Assembly (NCBI GenBank): GCA_021776685.1
Contig: JAJFFJ010000040.1
Span: 1-64,000 of the forward strand
Source: Alphaproteobacteria bacterium
Lineage (GTDB): Bacteria; Pseudomonadota; Alphaproteobacteria; Bin65
Direction of reading: 5' to 3'
Length of the DNA stretch: 64,000 bases
The notes under the pieces were generated by a model, which searched no databases, was not told the origin of the DNA, and saw nothing but the letters and a program-made list of their open reading frames with translations. Positions 2,343-55,139 of this stretch are shown one piece after another. Every line of letters starts with the position of its first letter. Position 1 is the first letter of the stretch. The position numbers and the translations under genes are program-made.

Positions 2343-3380
2343 ATGCCATTTTTCAGAATTTTTGCGGCACTCGCCGCTTTCGCAGGGGTCGGGTCGGGCT
2401 TTGCAGGTTTTGCCCAGGCGGCCAAGCCAGAGCCCTGGGGTATCGGCATGCAGCCGTCTATCTCGCCCTTCATGGACCAGGTGCTGGATTTCCATACCCT
2501 GCTGATGGTGATCATCACCCTGATCACGGTCTTTGTACTGGGTCTCCTGATCTGGGTGATGCTGCGCTATAACGAGCGCGCCAATCCCAACCCGTCCAAG
2601 ACCACCCACAACACGCTGATCGAGATTATCTGGACGGTGGTGCCAGTTGCGATTCTGGTTGTCATTGCTGTGCCATCCTTCCGCCTGCTTTTCGCGGCGG
2701 ACAATGCCGGCCATGAAATGCCGATCACCATCAAGGCCCGGGGCCATCAGTGGTATTGGACCTATGTCTACCAGCAATCATTCAAGCTCAACGACAAGGG
2801 CCAGGTGGTGAGCGCCGGCGGCAAGTTGCTGAAATGGAATGCGGGTGCTGCCAAGTATGACGGTGGCAAGCCGGTGGAAACGCTGAAAACGCCGTTCCTG
2901 TTCAAAAGCGAAATCCTCTGCGAGACTGCCGCCCAATGTAAAAAGGCCAGCGCAAAGCTGGGTCGTCCGGCGCTACGCCTGCTGGATGTCGATCGTGCGC
3001 TGGTGATCCCCACCGGGGTCAAAATCCGCCTGATCGTCGTGGCGGCGGACGTCATTCACGCCTTTGCTATGCCGGCAATGGGCGTCAAGGTAGACGCCGT
3101 CCCCGGCCGCAACAATGAAACCTGGCTGTATGCCAGAAAGCCTGGCCTCTACTACGGCCAATGCTCGGAAATTTGCGGCCGACGGCATGCCTACATGCCA
3201 ATCACCATCCGCGCCATGTCCCCCGCTGACTATGCCAAGTGGCTGACGGACAAGCAGGCCAAGGCTACGGCTGGCAAGGACGGCTATGAAAAAGACGAAT
3301 CGCTGACGCCAAAGAAAACCAAGAAGACATCTTCCCTGCCATCGCGTGACCGCTCGGTCGCGGCGCGGCCGGCGAAGTAG
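2343..3380 (+). CDS. coxB: Cytochrome c oxidase subunit II (CuA subunit)
   Basis: Subunit II of the aa3 oxidase takes electrons from cytochrome c through the binuclear CuA centre. Residues 1-27 are a signal peptide, and transmembrane helices lie near 50-73 and 95-117. The CuA ligands are present: H239, C274, E276, C278, H282 and M285, in CSEICGRRHAYM. At 345 residues it is longer than usual. An insertion of roughly 45 residues (about 150-200) between the QWYWTY aromatic motif and the CuA half carries two extra cysteines (C193, C199), and a Lys-rich tail follows residue 303. It is the first gene of the oxidase operon. Confidence 0.96.
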   Translation: MPFFRIFAALAAFAGVGSGFAGFAQAAKPEPWGIGMQPSISPFMDQVLDFHTLLMVIITLITVFVLGLLIWVMLRYNERANPNPSKTTHNTLIEIIWTVVPVAILVVIAVPSFRLLFAADNAGHEMPITIKARGHQWYWTYVYQQSFKLNDKGQVVSAGGKLLKWNAGAAKYDGGKPVETLKTPFLFKSEILCETAAQCKKASAKLGRPALRLLDVDRALVIPTGVKIRLIVVAADVIHAFAMPAMGVKVDAVPGRNNETWLYARKPGLYYGQCSEICGRRHAYMPITIRAMSPADYAKWLTDKQAKATAGKDGYEKDESLTPKKTKKTSSLPSRDRSVAARPAK

Positions 3381-3430
3381 TTAGCAAAGAAAAATAACAC
3401 ATGGGCGCCGGTCTGCGGCGCCAGGGGTAA

Positions 3431-5089
<1,659 letters not shown>

Positions 5090-47693: not shown

Positions 47694-49355
47694 ATGACGG
47701 ACAGCGCGCCCGAACGCGAGTCGATGGAATATGATGTAGTGGTTGTTGGGGGTGGCCCCTCGGGCCTGGCGGCAGCAATCAGGCTGAAGCAACTGGCGGC
47801 GGAAAAAGGCCAGGAGCTGGCGGTCAGTGTGTTGGAAAAGGGATCAGAGGTTGGTGCGCATATATTGTCAGGCGCCGTCATGGACCCGCGTGGCCTGGAC
47901 GAACTGTTCCCGGACTGGCGTGAAATGGGTGCGCCGGCGACAACGGAAGTTACAGAGGACCGCTTCCTGTTCCTGTCGGAAAAAGGCGCGCGCCGGGTCC
48001 CGAACCTGCTGCTGCCGGGCTGTTTCCAGAATCACGGCAATTACATTATCAGCCTCGGCAACCTGTGCCGCTGGCTGGCGGAGCAGGCGGAGGCGCTAGG
48101 CGTAGAAATCTATCCCGGGTTTGCCGCATCGGAGGTGGTTTTTGATGACAATGGAGCCGTCAAAGGTGTCGCCACCGGTGATATGGGCGTCGGCAAGGAA
48201 GGCGAGCAGACCGCTAACTATCAGCCCGGGATCGAATTGCACGGCAAGTACACGATTTTCGCGGAAGGCTGCCGCGGTAGCCTTGGCAAAGAGCTGACCG
48301 CCAAATTCAATTTGGGGGCGAATGCCGAGGAAGCCGTTTATGGCATCGGCCTGAAAGAGCTATGGGATATTGACCCGGCCAAGCATCAGGAAGGCCTGGT
48401 GGTTCATACGGCCGGTTGGCCTCTCGACTCCAAGACCTATGGCGGCTCGTTCCTGTACCATGCAGCCGACAATCAGGTGGCTGTCGGCTATGTGGTCGGG
48501 CTGGACTATGAGAACCCGTATTTGAGCCCCTATGAGGAGTTCCAGCGCTACAAGACCCATCCCAAAATTCGAGCATTTTTCGAAGGCGGAAAGCGGGTTG
48601 CTTATGGCGCCCGAGCCATCAACGCGGGCGGCCTGCAGTCGTTGCCAAAGCTTGTGTTCCCCGGCGGCATGCTGGTCGGCGATAATGCGGGCTTCCTCAA
48701 TGCCTCACGTATCAAGGGAACCCACACAGCCATCAAGTCGGGAATGATGGCGGCCGAGGCCGCCGCCGACGCGATCGCAGAAGGCCGCGAGCGCGATGAG
48801 CTTGCCGCCTATCCAGAGGCCTACTCGAAAAGCTGGGTGCGCAAGGAACTGCACAAAGGCCGCAACTTCAAGCCGCTGATGAAGCGTGGCCTGCGTTTAG
48901 GCAGCTTTCTATTTGGCGTCGACCAGGTGCTGTTTCGGGGCAGGGCGCCCTGGACCCTCAAGCATGGCCACACAGACCATGCCAGCACCAAACCCAAAGC
49001 CAATTTCAAGCCGATCGACTATCCCAAGCCCGATGGGGAAATCTCATTTGACCGGCTGACCAACCTGTCCTTTTCCGCGACCAACCATGAAGAGAACCAG
49101 CCTGTCCATCTGGTGCTGAAAGAGCCGTCCGTCGCCATCGATACAAACCTTGAGATTTATGATGCGCCGGAGCAACGGTATTGCCCGGCGGGTGTCTACG
49201 AGATCGTGCGCGATGACGACGGCAGCAATGCCCGGCTTCAGATCAACGCCCAGAACTGCGTCCATTGCAAATCCTGCGATATCAAGGATCCTACCCAGAA
49301 CATCAATTGGACGACGCCTGAAGGCGGCGGCGGGCCCAACTACCCGAATATGTGA
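47694..49355 (+). CDS. Electron transfer flavoprotein-ubiquinone oxidoreductase
   Basis: ETF-QO passes electrons from ETF to ubiquinone at the inner membrane, linking fatty and amino acid oxidation to respiration. This 553-residue protein has the FAD motif VVVGGGPSGLAA, the quinone region around SEVGAHILSGAV, and the C-terminal [4Fe-4S] cysteines beginning YCPAGVYE and CVHCKSCDIKDPTQNI. The ATG at 47694 has GGAG in front; the frame is open upstream without homology. Confidence 0.97.
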   Translation: MTDSAPERESMEYDVVVVGGGPSGLAAAIRLKQLAAEKGQELAVSVLEKGSEVGAHILSGAVMDPRGLDELFPDWREMGAPATTEVTEDRFLFLSEKGARRVPNLLLPGCFQNHGNYIISLGNLCRWLAEQAEALGVEIYPGFAASEVVFDDNGAVKGVATGDMGVGKEGEQTANYQPGIELHGKYTIFAEGCRGSLGKELTAKFNLGANAEEAVYGIGLKELWDIDPAKHQEGLVVHTAGWPLDSKTYGGSFLYHAADNQVAVGYVVGLDYENPYLSPYEEFQRYKTHPKIRAFFEGGKRVAYGARAINAGGLQSLPKLVFPGGMLVGDNAGFLNASRIKGTHTAIKSGMMAAEAAADAIAEGRERDELAAYPEAYSKSWVRKELHKGRNFKPLMKRGLRLGSFLFGVDQVLFRGRAPWTLKHGHTDHASTKPKANFKPIDYPKPDGEISFDRLTNLSFSATNHEENQPVHLVLKEPSVAIDTNLEIYDAPEQRYCPAGVYEIVRDDDGSNARLQINAQNCVHCKSCDIKDPTQNINWTTPEGGGGPNYPNM

Positions 49356-49503: not shown

Positions 49504-51210
49504 ATGCCGAAAATCGTAAAACTCGCCGCCGCGGTGCTGGTTACCACCGTCGTCATCAGCGCGTGCGAGGAGGGGCCGCCGGCCGGCGCTGCCATCGAGC
49601 CGCGCAATACCTTCGGCGCATATCTCTCAGCACTGCATGCAGACCGGCGAAATCAGGCAACTGAAGCGGCCCGCCGGTATGCGGCAGCCTTGGCTGCCGA
49701 TCCGAACAATCCCCGCCTGCGCCGACAGACCTTTTATGCCTCCATGCGCGCAGGTGAAGTTGGCCGGGCCATCGAACTGGCCAAGAAGATCACGGCTGTC
49801 GAGCCGACCTATATGCCGGCGGTCCTGGCGTTGTTGACGGACGGGATGAAGCGCGGCGAATACAAGGAAGCGCTGAAATGGGCCGGTAAGTTGCCGGCCA
49901 GCGGTTCACTCGGCTTCGTGCGCGTGGTCGCCCGGGCCTGGGCGCTTGTCGGCGCCAATGAGGCGAAGCAGGCTCTGGCCGAGATCGACAAGCTGAAGGA
50001 CCGGCGCGGGTTACGCATGTTTCATTCCCTGCATCGCGGCTTGATGCTGGACGTGCTCGGCCGTGGGAAGGAAGCGGCCACCTGGTATGCTGCGGCCTAC
50101 AAAGCCCAGTCCTCTCCAGCGATTCGATTTATTCAGGCGGCGGCCTCGGGCCTGGTTCGCGCAGGTGACAAACCCGCGGCGCTGAAGATGATCGGGTCCT
50201 ACGAATTCTCGCGGGGCGACAGCTTTGCGATGACCCATCTCCGCCGCACCATCGCCAAGAGCGACACGCCAGATGCGCTCGTGCCGGACGCGCGGGAAGG
50301 CTTTGCGGAGTTGCTGATGAATCTGGCCAGCGCGATGGTGCAAGACAACAGGGCCAGACCGGCGTTGATGTGGGCGCAGGCATCCTTGTATCTGCGTCCC
50401 CAGAATGGGGCGTCCATCTATCTGGTTGGCGATATTCAGAGAAGTCTGGGCCAACACCTGGCCGCGATCGAAACACTTGGGCGCGTGAAAACCAGTGACC
50501 CGTTCTCCTGGGAAGCCGGTAAATCCATTGTCAGCAGTCTGGCAGCGCTGGACCGAAAGCTGGAAGCGGAAAAACTGCTCGAGGAAATGGCCGGACGCGA
50601 AACGAAACGCTGGGATGTCCTGGCAATGCTGGGCAACCTGCATCGCGGGCTCAGAAAGTGGCCTGAAGCGATCAAGGCCTATGACCGTGCGATCGGGCGT
50701 ATTGAGAAGCCGAAGGAAGGCCACTGGAACCTGTTCTTCGCCCGCGCTGTCGCTTTCGAGCGCGCCAAGCAGTGGCCAAAAGCGGAACGTGATTTCCGGA
50801 TGGCCCTCAAGCTGCGTCCAGACCAGCCTGCGGTGCTCAACTATCTTGCCTATTCCTGGGTCGACCGGAAGGAGAACCTCAAGGAAGCGCTGGCGATGCT
50901 CCGCAAGGCCGTCAGGTTGAGGCCCCGGGATGGTGCGATCATCGACTCGCTGGGCTGGGCATATTACCGGCTGGGGCAGTTTTCCCGGTCCGTGCGCATC
51001 CTTGAGCGCGCCGTGACGCTGTCGCCGCGCAATTGGGAAATCAACGACCATTTGGGCGATGCCTACTGGCGCACCGGGCGCGTGACCGAAGCCCGGCATC
51101 AGTGGCGGCGGGCCCAGTCGATGCAGCCTGACAAGTCGGTTCTGATCAAGATCAAGGAAAAGCTCCAGCGCGGCCTGCCGGCGCTCAAGCCGTCCGAACC
51201 GGGTCAGTAG
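49504..51210 (+). CDS. TPR-repeat lipoprotein
   Basis: The 568-residue protein has a signal peptide and lipobox VISAC (C21). It is almost entirely TPR-like helix pairs with a clear run near the C-terminus (RPDQPAVLNYLAYSWVDR and RDGAIIDSLGWAYYRLGQ). It resembles proteins that scaffold envelope complexes or LPS/peptidoglycan synthesis. It lies 8 bp before ispE and may be cotranscribed. Confidence 0.88.
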   Translation: MPKIVKLAAAVLVTTVVISACEEGPPAGAAIEPRNTFGAYLSALHADRRNQATEAARRYAAALAADPNNPRLRRQTFYASMRAGEVGRAIELAKKITAVEPTYMPAVLALLTDGMKRGEYKEALKWAGKLPASGSLGFVRVVARAWALVGANEAKQALAEIDKLKDRRGLRMFHSLHRGLMLDVLGRGKEAATWYAAAYKAQSSPAIRFIQAAASGLVRAGDKPAALKMIGSYEFSRGDSFAMTHLRRTIAKSDTPDALVPDAREGFAELLMNLASAMVQDNRARPALMWAQASLYLRPQNGASIYLVGDIQRSLGQHLAAIETLGRVKTSDPFSWEAGKSIVSSLAALDRKLEAEKLLEEMAGRETKRWDVLAMLGNLHRGLRKWPEAIKAYDRAIGRIEKPKEGHWNLFFARAVAFERAKQWPKAERDFRMALKLRPDQPAVLNYLAYSWVDRKENLKEALAMLRKAVRLRPRDGAIIDSLGWAYYRLGQFSRSVRILERAVTLSPRNWEINDHLGDAYWRTGRVTEARHQWRRAQSMQPDKSVLIKIKEKLQRGLPALKPSEPGQ

Positions 51211-51218
51211 GCGCCGCC

Positions 51219-52133
51219 GTGACGGCAGAGACCGGGGGACAGGTCACTGTCGCCGCGCCGGCGAAGCTCAACCTCTATCTCCACGTTATTGGCCGCCGGG
51301 ACGATGGTTTCCATCTGCTCGACAGCCTGGTGTGCTTTGCGGCGACCCACGACACGTTGATTGTGACGCCGGCGGCAGGGCTTCACCTCGCCATCACGGG
51401 GCCCAGCGCGGGGGCGCTGCAATCCGAACCGAACAATCTGGTGATGCGCGCCGCGCGGCTGCTGGCCGGAGAGGCGGGCATCGAGCCCAATGCACAGATG
51501 ACACTGATCAAGCGCCTGCCCGTCGCGGCAGGGATTGGCGGCGGGTCGGCGGATGCGGCGGCGGCGCTGCAGGGGCTGGCCCGGCTGTGGGGCCTGGCGA
51601 TTGATGGGGCGATCTTGAACGATTTGGCTGGTCAGCTCGGGGCGGATGTTCCGGTTTGTCTGCGCGGCACTGCTGCATTCGTGGGGGGTATTGGCGAAGA
51701 ATTGGATGACACACCTGCCCTTCCTTCTGCGCCCCTGTTGCTGATCAATCCGGGTGCTGCGTTGTCGACCCCCACGGTCTTTGGCTCGCGCAGTGGCCCT
51801 TTTGGCGCCGCCGACCGCTTCTCGGAATCACCTGCCGATGTGGCGGCGTTGGCCGGCCTATTGGCGCAGCGCCATAACGGTCTGACCGAGGCGGCGGTGC
51901 AGCTGCAGCCGGTGGTGCAGGAGTGCCTGTCTGCCATCGCCAATCGGCCAGGGGCGTTGCTTGCGCGCATGTCCGGCAGTGGCGCCACTTGCTTTGGTTT
52001 GTTTCAGGACGGCGACGCCTGCGCTGCTGCTGCTGCGCACCTGCGTGCGGTCCATCCTGACTGGTGGGTCGAAGCTACGGAATTGCTGACAGATGCCCGC
52101 GAGCTGACGCCGGATCTGGAAAACGGCGCCTAG
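51219..52133 (+). CDS. ispE: 4-diphosphocytidyl-2-C-methyl-D-erythritol kinase
   Basis: IspE phosphorylates CDP-methylerythritol in the MEP isoprenoid pathway. The 304-residue GHMP kinase has the N-terminal AAPAKLNLYLHVIGRRDDGFH block and the ATP loop LPVAAGIGGGSADAAA. GTG start. Its tail converges with the Sel1 protein gene 18 bp away. Confidence 0.96.
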   Translation: MTAETGGQVTVAAPAKLNLYLHVIGRRDDGFHLLDSLVCFAATHDTLIVTPAAGLHLAITGPSAGALQSEPNNLVMRAARLLAGEAGIEPNAQMTLIKRLPVAAGIGGGSADAAAALQGLARLWGLAIDGAILNDLAGQLGADVPVCLRGTAAFVGGIGEELDDTPALPSAPLLLINPGAALSTPTVFGSRSGPFGAADRFSESPADVAALAGLLAQRHNGLTEAAVQLQPVVQECLSAIANRPGALLARMSGSGATCFGLFQDGDACAAAAAHLRAVHPDWWVEATELLTDARELTPDLENGA

Positions 52134-52151: not shown

Positions 52152-53627
52152 TTAGTTTGCGGCCCGTTTTCGGGTCGGGAAGCGGCGGTGATGATCGCGC
52201 GCCATCTCGACGGCCCGGTCTTGCTGCTCCCGCTTCATGCCGATGGACATGTCCTCAACCCGCTGGGCCGCCAGACGGTGTTTCTGCTCCGCGGCCAGGA
52301 TGAACCACTTGAGCGCGCGGATCACATCCTTGGGCGCGCCGATGCCGCGCTCGTGCATCCGTCCCAGGGTATATTGGGCGTTGACCTCACCGGCCTCCGC
52401 GGCGCGCTCCAGAAACTGCCTTGCGCGGATCAGGTTCTGTTTGACGCCGCGGCCGTGCAGGAATGCCAGACCCACCTCGGTTATCGCCGGCACATAGCCC
52501 TGGTCCGCGGCGCGCCGGTAAAGCAACACTGCCTCGACGTCGTTCTTCTTCACGCCCTTGCCGCGGGCATGGAGCACGCCGAGGGCGTATTGCGCCTTGG
52601 CCAGCTTGCCTTCGCGGGCGGCTTTCCCGAACCACAACGCAGCATTTTCCAGGCTTTTGGTGACACCGCCGCCCTTCAGGTAAAGCGTTGCGAGAACATA
52701 TTGTGCACCGGGATTTCCTGCGTCCGCCGCTTTCTTGTACCAGGCCGCATTTTCCTCGGGCGGGCGTGGAAAATTCGCCGGCCGCACGCGGGCCAAATCG
52801 GTCTTCGCGCCACCCGCCGAGGGTGGATTTCCAGCTGGAGGTGCGCGTGAGGTGGGGGCGCCCGCCGTGCCACTGCCGGCAACCGCACCGGTTGCGCCAT
52901 CCTGACCGGTCGCCTCTGGCTTGGGCAGGTGCGGCAGCAGCCAGATCGCTGCCGCCACCAAGCCGAAAGTGACTACCCCCGTTGCCGCCAGCCAAGGGAT
53001 CGTTCCACGGCGCTTGGGTGCAGGCAGGGGTGCATGATCTGTCAGCATCAGGATGCCGTTGGGATCGGCATTGGCATCTACATGCGCTGCCGCGGCATGC
53101 AGTTCTGCGGTCTCAAGCTCCTGACGCCATCCGGCGACCACCTGCGCGAACCGCTCTTCCACCAGTTCACCCGCTTCCACCGGCTTGGGCGCTTCGGTAA
53201 CCGCCTCTGCTGCAATGGGAGCTTCCGCCGCTGCGGGAAGGGCGGCAGTTGGCGGCGGCGCGTGGCCGGGCTCGGGGGGCGGGGTGTATCCCGCCATCGA
53301 CCGGCGGGTGTTGTCCAGGATCGTTCGGCTCAGCCACTCGGCAACGGAAATCCCCGCTGCATCGGCGGCTGCCTGGGCACTGCGAAGGTGCCGTGTTATC
53401 GCACCCTCGGATTGGTTTTCGGGATTATCCGGGCCGGAAGCAGCCTGGCCAGGGATGATGCCGGAGCGGCGCGCATTTTCCAGAATCGTGCGGCTCAGCC
53501 ATTCCTCAAGGCTCAGGCCGGCCGCCTGCGCCGCCGCATTGGCGGCGGCCATGGTCTGCGAATCCAGTGAGGTGTAGCTCACACCCTGCTGTTTGCCCGC
53601 AGCGCTGCCGTTAAGGCCTTGATCCAT
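52152..53627 (-). CDS. Membrane Sel1-repeat protein with duplicated PodJ-like N-terminal motif
   Basis: This 491-residue protein has three parts. Residues 24-55 and 84-110 are two copies of a helix motif (AAQAAGLSLEEWLSRTI; AADAAGISVAEWLSRTI) as seen at the N-termini of PodJ-like and other alphaproteobacterial polar proteins. A Pro/Ala-rich cytoplasmic region leads to one membrane helix (about 210-233). A C-terminal set of five Sel1 repeats (about 290-470) would lie in the periplasm. It resembles PodJ-type localisation factors without the long coiled coil. The ParB-like gene next door carries the same motif. Confidence 0.85.
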   Translation of the reverse strand: MDQGLNGSAAGKQQGVSYTSLDSQTMAAANAAAQAAGLSLEEWLSRTILENARRSGIIPGQAASGPDNPENQSEGAITRHLRSAQAAADAAGISVAEWLSRTILDNTRRSMAGYTPPPEPGHAPPPTAALPAAAEAPIAAEAVTEAPKPVEAGELVEERFAQVVAGWRQELETAELHAAAAHVDANADPNGILMLTDHAPLPAPKRRGTIPWLAATGVVTFGLVAAAIWLLPHLPKPEATGQDGATGAVAGSGTAGAPTSRAPPAGNPPSAGGAKTDLARVRPANFPRPPEENAAWYKKAADAGNPGAQYVLATLYLKGGGVTKSLENAALWFGKAAREGKLAKAQYALGVLHARGKGVKKNDVEAVLLYRRAADQGYVPAITEVGLAFLHGRGVKQNLIRARQFLERAAEAGEVNAQYTLGRMHERGIGAPKDVIRALKWFILAAEQKHRLAAQRVEDMSIGMKREQQDRAVEMARDHHRRFPTRKRAAN

Positions 53628-53741
53628 TAACTACTCCGGCCAGTGTGCCCCGGTTTGGTCGGTGCAACCTTGTAGGCTTAATATGGCATAAATGGTGTCT
53701 GCGTGCCGCTTTATCGGTAAATATTCAGCGAATGCGGCTTG

Positions 53742-55139
53742 TCAATCGCCGCCCTGCAAACGGGTGAGCAACTCGATCAACTGATCTCGGCTGGTGTACT
53801 GAAGCGTCACCACACCGGTGCCGTGATTGTCGACGATCGAGACGCGTAATCCAAGAAGGTCGCGCAGGCGTTGCTCCAGAGCCGCCTCGGTCAGATCATC
53901 ACCTGCCGGACCCATATCAAAGGCTGGTTCGGCCGGTCCTGGCTCCACACCAAAGCCAGCGTCCATCGATGGCCCGATATCGAGTGACGGCTCCAGACGC
54001 TGCCCTGTCGGCGCCCGTTCTTGCGCCACCGTGTCGGCCATTCGGTTGCTGGACTGGTTGTCCCGGTTGGCCGCGGCAAGCCGCGCGACGATTCGGGGGC
54101 GCGGCGTATGACTGCGTCCGACCACCAGCGCCGCTTCTTCCGGCTCTTCTTCCACCACCGCCTGATCAAGCAGCACCGCATTCTGGTTGGACGATCGAAC
54201 CAGTTGTTCGGTCTGATAGATGTCCAGGTTGCTGCGCACGATTTCGCGCGCCACCGCTTCCGGGTTGCTTGCCCCCAGAAGGGCCCGGGCATGCAACAGG
54301 CTGATCTCGCTGGATTCCAGCAGGCCGCGCACAGAGCGCGGAAGGCTGAGAATGCGCACCATCGTCGCCACATGTGCGGGTGGCTTGCCGGCAATGCGCG
54401 AGACTTCTTCCGTGGATTTGCCAGCTTCCGTCATCAGACGCAGGTAGATGTTGGCCTCATCCACCGGTGACAGTTCCGGCCGCGCCAGTTGGTGGCTGAG
54501 GGCGAACTCGATTGCCCCCTCGTCGTCCAACTCCCGAATTTCGATCGGGACCTCCCGGATGTGGGCGCGCCGCGCCGCGTGCCATCGGTCGAGGCCGGTG
54601 ACGATCTCGTAAGCGCCCGGCTCCGTTGCGAGAGGGCGAACGATAATCGGCTCCATCCGGCCGGTTCGCCGCCAGTCGTCTACCGCCGTCTCGATATGCG
54701 CTTCCGATACGCCTCCCAGGATTCGAAGCGTACTCGGGCGAAGCGCCTTCGCCGACACATTGAGGGGTCGTCCATCCTGCCCCGTCAGCGTGGGCTCCAG
54801 GCCAGGACTATGCCGGTAGGTCTCGGCCTCCGAGTCTTCCAGGGGCACTGGCATCGGATCGACGCCGGGGAACATGCGCTCTTCTTCGTGGTCGCCCATG
54901 CGCAACGGGGCCGCCCGGCCGCCCGGCGCGGTTTCCTTCAGAATTGCCTGGTTGATGGAGCCGTGGTCCAGAGAAGCCGAGGTGCCGCTTTCCTGGAGTT
55001 CCATGGCGCTGGTGTACTTGATCAGCTGCGCCAGCCACATGTCGAGATCCATATCGGCCACGCCCGCCGCCTCTTCGGCAGCGTTGCGGGCGTCAGATGA
55101 AATTCCGACAAAGCTCCAGGATGATTTGATTTCAGTCAT
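53742..55139 (-). CDS. ParB-family protein with PodJ-like N-terminal motif (paralogue)
   Basis: This 465-residue protein shows full ParB architecture: N-terminal domain at about 130-205, HTH at about 237-275 (STEEVSRIAGKPPAHVATMVRIL), a linker, and a C-terminal dimer domain at 417-463. The CTP-binding box is altered: the usual GERR is GLDR (182-185). The N-terminal 7-40 is a SWSFVGISSDARNAAEEAAG-type motif ending WLAQLI, shared with PodJ-like proteins and with the neighbouring Sel1 protein. No parA is adjacent, so it is not the standard chromosomal ParB. No ribosome binding site is evident. Confidence 0.88.
   Translation of the reverse strand: MTEIKSSWSFVGISSDARNAAEEAAGVADMDLDMWLAQLIKYTSAMELQESGTSASLDHGSINQAILKETAPGGRAAPLRMGDHEEERMFPGVDPMPVPLEDSEAETYRHSPGLEPTLTGQDGRPLNVSAKALRPSTLRILGGVSEAHIETAVDDWRRTGRMEPIIVRPLATEPGAYEIVTGLDRWHAARRAHIREVPIEIRELDDEGAIEFALSHQLARPELSPVDEANIYLRLMTEAGKSTEEVSRIAGKPPAHVATMVRILSLPRSVRGLLESSEISLLHARALLGASNPEAVAREIVRSNLDIYQTEQLVRSSNQNAVLLDQAVVEEEPEEAALVVGRSHTPRPRIVARLAAANRDNQSSNRMADTVAQERAPTGQRLEPSLDIGPSMDAGFGVEPGPAEPAFDMGPAGDDLTEAALEQRLRDLLGLRVSIVDNHGTGVVTLQYTSRDQLIELLTRLQGGD

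Follow-up and report, generated by a model that had tools for sequence, protein, structure and literature searches.

A predicted ribbon-helix-helix domain shared by a second ParB and a neighboring Sel1 membrane protein in a conserved alphaproteobacterial operon

The window, meaning the whole 64-kb stretch of DNA analyzed here, carries two neighboring minus-strand genes whose products share a motif predicted to fold as a ribbon-helix-helix (RHH) domain. The first (53742–55139, 465 aa), identified from the ORF list, Pfam and NCBIfam, encodes a ParB-like protein. Its predicted RHH domain (residues 7–48, 54996–55121) is followed by the CTP-binding ParB_N domain (residues 146–215, 54495–54704, E 1.2e-11), the helix-turn-helix DNA-binding domain (residues 222–318, 54186–54476, HTH_ParB E 8.6e-19) and the C-terminal dimerization domain (residues 419–462, 53754–53885, ParB_C E 9.9e-8). 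After a gap of 114 bp, the second gene (52152–53627, 491 aa) encodes a membrane protein with two motif copies, at residues 15–55 (53463–53585) and residues 75–112 (53292–53405), the strand region of the latter being weaker. A TM helix lies at about residues 210–235 with KRR before it (52923–53000, from hydropathy and sequence), followed by four Sel1 repeats that are predicted to be periplasmic (52257–52763, outer limits approximate; four Pfam Sel1 stretches, E 1.1e-35). Convergent with this pair on the plus strand is ispE (51219–52133, TIGR00154 156.7 bits), accompanied by the genes for a TPR protein (49504–51210) and an ETF-ubiquinone oxidoreductase (47706–49355, Fer4_ETF_QO E 1.4e-50). We treat these three genes as conserved surroundings that lie outside the proposed system.

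A preliminary description of this DNA had placed the motif once in the ParB-like protein and twice in the Sel1 protein, and this was confirmed, with residue ranges right to within about 10 residues. The consensus of 33 copies is PWSVKGV-x-PEAREAAK-x-AAR-x-AGL-x-LG-x-WL-x(3)-I, in which the Trp is invariant and the Gly nearly so. The profile built from these copies (A3), which come from other genera only and were initially gathered with a model that contained the window copies, matched the whole 4.5 Mb genome three times, always in the two genes (Sel1 copy 1, E 7.4e-12; ParB copy, E 7.5e-11; Sel1 copy 2, E 5.1e-7). The next match had an E-value of 0.62, and the motif thus held up as specific. 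With a model made from stand-alone PodJ-like proteins only, the same two ORFs scored highest of the 1211 in the window, at 35.0 and 32.6 bits, with the third at 6.1 bits. Class-wide, the ParB-side motif gave matches in 78 of 385 genomes and a broad motif profile in 106 of 385, in a set that includes many draft assemblies. The consensus was not found in plasmid and phage records. Among viral contigs, the PodJ-like motif subset matched one (L123, IMGVR_UViG_3300002952_000004), where an RHH-coiled-coil gene begins directly after an integrase-like gene (2611–4588); this arrangement suggests either an element integrated beside the RHH-coiled-coil gene or a host fragment at the edge of a prophage. 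Outside the class, small stand-alone motif frames of 114–164 aa were seen (G404, G410, G413, G433, G441 and others, from family f192 and a few more).

The motif had been described as a PodJ-type interaction helix. Our analysis revised this to a short strand and, after it, two helices separated by a Gly-containing turn, which is very likely an RHH domain. When the 33 copies were scanned singly against Pfam, weak matches were obtained to NikA-like (7), HicB (6), FitA-like RHH (3), PSK_trans_fac (2) and TacA1 (2), families that we take to be RHH, while RuvA_C (2) and most singletons were non-RHH. The best E-values were about 5e-4 to 1e-3, and the window motif matches stayed under the Pfam gathering score. 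The first Sel1-protein copy matched an NCBIfam VapB antitoxin model (E 0.0021) and the second matched Pfam NikA-like (residues 85–107, E 0.0012). Shuffled copies of equal composition yielded a single chance match in Pfam and none to an RHH family.

Structure prediction pointed the same way. An AlphaFold model of Sel1-protein residues 13–113, covering both copies (single-sequence input, pLDDT 71), had permuted single-chain Arc as its top Foldseek match in the PDB (probability 1.00, TM 0.57, E 0.1), followed by F-plasmid relaxosome chains. The model of ParB residues 1–50 (four-sequence input, pLDDT 78) had helices at 15–27 and 32–49. Its PDB matches included AtaR, KacA, CopASO, Arc, TacA, PutA, AmrZ, VapB, ParG, MatP, CopG, NikA and FitA, and most of the top 50 were RHH proteins, as judged by title. 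Foldseek E-values for the motif models were modest (0.1–5) because the domain is tiny; the agreement of these predicted models on RHH proteins would be hard to explain otherwise. Neither monomer model was assigned a strand, as would be expected of RHH strands, which form only in the dimer. An hhalign comparison with 13 FitA-like RHH sequences was in register and weak (P 0.016, probability 2.8%). A PDB sequence search with the motif profile gave no convincing match (best E 0.057, TssA), so structure prediction and the weak Pfam matches carry the evidence for the fold.

The ParB-like protein is a second ParB paralog. Pfam ParB_N, HTH_ParB and ParB_C are all present, and the protein scored 96 bits with TIGR00180, over the cut-off of 58.45. 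Its best NCBIfam match was Noc (TIGR04285) at 105 bits, under the cut-off of 315. Eight genomes with a complete RHH-ParB match were checked, and all except the incomplete G026 held another, higher-scoring ParB. The canonical ParB of the window genome lies on another contig (G000:C106:13001-17045), with two perfect parS sites (TGTTTCACGTGAAACA palindromes) within a few kilobases; these are the only parS sites in that genome at ≤1 mismatch. Within the 64-kb window, none was found at ≤2 mismatches. A clade uniting the RHH-ParBs of families f1 and f8 is supported (100/98), and its members have the changed CTP motifs described below. A single origin of eight RHH-ParB sequences was not rejected (AU p 0.54), and the trees need two changes. 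Against a general genome-contig collection, the protein matched one distant ParB, from a Verrucomicrobia MAG.

The Sel1 protein is likely a PodJ-like membrane scaffold. Given the KRR ahead of the TM helix, the positive-inside rule predicts that the RHH domains face the cytoplasm and that the Sel1 repeats lie in the periplasm. According to one account, PodJ has cytoplasmic coiled coils, a TM segment, periplasmic repeats and a peptidoglycan-binding domain (PMC9684454). The window protein shares the predicted cytoplasmic N-terminus, the single TM helix and the periplasmic Sel1/TPR-like repeats. It differs in being roughly half as large as the PodJ-like proteins found in this analysis and in having two RHH copies, no C-terminal peptidoglycan-binding domain by Pfam and no long coiled coil evident by reading; its gene also adjoins ispE and the ParB paralog. 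Relatives at L113, L037, L078 and L101 do have the peptidoglycan-binding domain.

The claim that the motif opens PodJ-type proteins stood in part. Eight stand-alone long proteins (L100–L107) open with it, and L101 combines it with Sel1 repeats and PG_binding_1. The genes at L100, L101, L104 and L106 adjoin a TauE/SafE gene, and L104 also adjoins a TIGR02186 protein. These same two genes adjoin S. meliloti podJ1, which is unlabelled in its record and which we take to be podJ1 from similarity. Several proteins in podJ synteny therefore start with the motif, whereas it was absent when sought in S. meliloti PodJ1 and in Shinella PodJ; Caulobacter PodJ presumably carries it. The S. meliloti locus (L121, CP090106.1 604500–611500) sits in a 3.7 Mb record labelled pSymB, and its PodJ N-terminus lacks the RHH motif, though syntenic PodJ-like proteins of other families carry one. 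The window Sel1 gene is without podJ synteny, as it adjoins ispE and not TauE/SafE or TIGR02186. The portions available of two PodJ papers describe no N-terminal RHH domain (PMC9684454, PMC10127582).

The two genes had been proposed to form a two-part system, and they are indeed adjacent. The pair is, with little doubt, one form of a larger conserved alphaproteobacterial RHH operon, whose ParB position a short RHH protein frequently occupies instead. Of the 46 loci inspected, 29, from 16 families, had a run of two to four neighboring genes that all carry the motif. The usual order is a short RHH protein or RHH-ParB, then an RHH-coiled-coil (RHH-CC) protein, the coiled-coil label coming from reading the sequences, and then an RHH-TM-Sel1 protein that often ends in PG_binding_1. 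In families f1, f17 and f114, RHH-ParB is the first gene of the set; in f61 it stands alone beside ispE. It adjoins RHH-Sel1 in f1 and f8, a form that lacks the middle gene and whose Sel1 protein carries the RHH domain twice; in f17 and f114, RHH-ParB, RHH-CC and RHH-Sel1 occur together. The longest form seen (G026, L037:3111-8124) has four adjacent RHH genes, encoding RHH-ParB, RHH-CC, RHH-RHH-CC and RHH-TM-Sel1-PGB. At another locus (G070, L110:6902-8149), an RHH-ParB gene is directly convergent with ispE and no Sel1 gene adjoins it; this RHH-ParB carries a further RHH-like copy close to its C-terminal end (residues 348–377).

The surroundings of the operon are also conserved. It is usually convergent with ispE, and neighbor clustering placed ispE beside motif genes in 25 loci (cluster c2), the TPR gene in 26 (c1) and ETF-QO in 16 (c3). 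The retention of these neighbors indicates that the locus is old and mostly vertically inherited. A genome of the same family (G003) has the identical order, with ispE/TPR convergent with Sel1 and ParB, and a genome of another family (G017) retains the ParB-Sel1 pair with different neighbors. Sel1-protein orthologs lie beside ParB in another genus and a second family (L033, L036), which bears out the expectation that the two genes are conserved neighbors. Literature searches for RHH together with either Sel1 or peptidoglycan binding turned up no description of such an operon.

Our best reading, held with modest confidence, is that the second ParB acts as a Noc/PadC-like adaptor recruited via RHH domains to a PodJ-like envelope scaffold. 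It builds on computed features, namely motif homology, domain architecture, conservation of operon and synteny, second-ParB status and altered CTP motifs, together with the computed prediction of the RHH fold. The scaffold would consist of cytoplasmic RHH domains, a linker, one TM helix and periplasmic Sel1 repeats. The N-terminal RHH domain of the second ParB would recruit it to this scaffold, through either mixed RHH dimers or RHH-RHH packing. DNA held by the HTH/clamp domain of ParB, or a ParA-type partner, would thereby be fastened to the envelope. The pair may thus tether DNA or other cargo to the envelope, an outcome to which we give slight preference, with DNA as a putative cargo, and it may occupy a polar or otherwise localized position. 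Direct mixed RHH pairing between the two proteins is a tentative proposal that we would put somewhat short of probable. Having the RHH fold in common does not by itself imply that two proteins bind each other, as such domains commonly contact DNA or homodimerize.

Noc is the closest working analogue of the proposed mechanism. In Bacillus, this ParB paralog gives a precedent for the attachment of DNA to the membrane (PMC8429893). The window protein is likewise a second ParB that bears an extra attachment element at its N-terminus; this element is a predicted folded RHH domain, whereas that of Noc is a 10-residue amphipathic helix, and the proposed partner is a membrane protein. A protein adaptor would thus stand in for the lipid-binding helix in a Noc- or PadC-like logic. 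PopZ-ParB-parS does the same job as the one proposed here, DNA to the pole, with other proteins, and in the window genome the canonical ParB/parS is at another locus. That genome has a match to PF10691, a family that we take to mark PopZ. PodJ itself has a published part in positioning the centromere by way of PopZ (PMC9684454, PMC10127582): loss of podJ makes ParB foci more mobile, probably via PopZ (PMC10127582).

The strongest competitor, which we nevertheless consider rather unlikely, is that the ParB-like domain no longer clamps DNA under CTP control and, like PadC, holds ParA or another protein at the scaffold instead of DNA. In the window ParB_N, GERRWRA reads GLDRWHA (from residue 182) and ENxQR reads HQLAR (from residue 216). 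Across the window, L033, L034 and L036 proteins, GERRWRA is replaced by GLDRWHA, GIDRWHA, GIERWHA or GTERWHA, and the EN of ENxQR is changed. CTP handling is probably altered in this lineage, because the Asn of ENxQR matters in ParB and Noc (N112S, N121S; PMC7333895, PMC8429893). On the other hand, HTH_ParB and ParB_C are well recognized in the window protein, and the f17 and f114 homologues keep the canonical GERRWRA and ENxQR. PadC of Myxococcus is ParB-like and binds CTP and ParA (PMC7333895). The likeness drawn here is by description and not by sequence, and it concerns a ParB-like domain serving as an adaptor; the window protein differs in retaining HTH and ParB_C. PadC is also linked to bactofilin.

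A second alternative, to which we assign a low probability, is that the RHH domains read DNA. Each protein would form its own RHH dimer and the proteins would meet on shared operator DNA, with the tandem Sel1 copies dimerizing like single-chain Arc and the membrane protein serving as a membrane-bound DNA tether or regulator. Many structurally solved RHH domains bind DNA, and the predicted structure of the tandem copies resembles single-chain Arc and chains of the F-plasmid relaxosome. Against this, the window ParB has S, S and V at the Arc DNA-contact strand positions by our own alignment. These positions vary widely across the motif family without a conserved basic set, which by inference favors a protein-binding role. 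Arc, CopG, FitA, ParG, MatP and NikA share the predicted fold of the domain. What sets the present case apart is that the domain forms the N-terminal module of three kinds of protein from adjacent genes, namely a ParB, a coiled-coil protein and a membrane scaffold. The non-basic Arc-contact positions, together with the predicted cytoplasmic topology of the RHH domains, lead us to favor RHH-mediated recruitment of the ParB paralog to the PodJ-like scaffold.

It is less probable still that the N-terminal domain is a mere homodimerization module, with the adjacency left by an ancient tandem duplication and the proteins not cooperating. RHH is a homodimer fold, tandem duplication would yield adjacent RHH genes, and short RHH proteins occupy the same slot; yet clusters of at least two such genes are kept in 16 families, mostly at one locus, while the linkers diverge, and the domain has become attached to a ParB, to a coiled-coil protein and to a PodJ-like protein alike. 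Generic low-complexity amphipathic helices, alike by composition, are a highly improbable account of these Ala-rich copies, given a profile that finds only three copies in 4.5 Mb, the conserved Trp and Gly, and composition-matched shuffles that lose every RHH match.

Points that count against recruitment of the ParB paralog to the scaffold as our best reading include the following: the window holds no parS-like site, genus g3 of the same family as the window genome is without the motif, the G070 RHH-ParB has no adjoining Sel1 gene, the Foldseek E-values are modest and the AlphaFold inputs shallow, and the comparison with FitA-like RHH was weak. A more speculative extension, which we hold doubtful, is that RHH domains form a private assembly code of alphaproteobacteria. 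The RHH proteins of the operon (a short RHH protein or RHH-ParB, RHH-CC and an RHH-TM-Sel1 protein anchored to peptidoglycan), and in some lineages PodJ itself, would co-assemble through mixed RHH dimers, and some lineages would plug in a ParB paralog, fastening DNA to the envelope.

Herein, our analysis reveals a conserved operon for which the literature searched held no description, and it assigns a predicted fold, with a role that can be tested, to the N-terminal part of many PodJ-like scaffolds. The results suggest that RHH, known above all as a DNA-binding fold, has been put to a new use in assembly. They offer a second possible route for anchoring a ParB-type protein to the envelope, parallel to PopZ-ParB and Noc, and point to the RHH-ParB/Sel1 cluster as a little-known means by which DNA or other cargo could be attached to the cell envelope.
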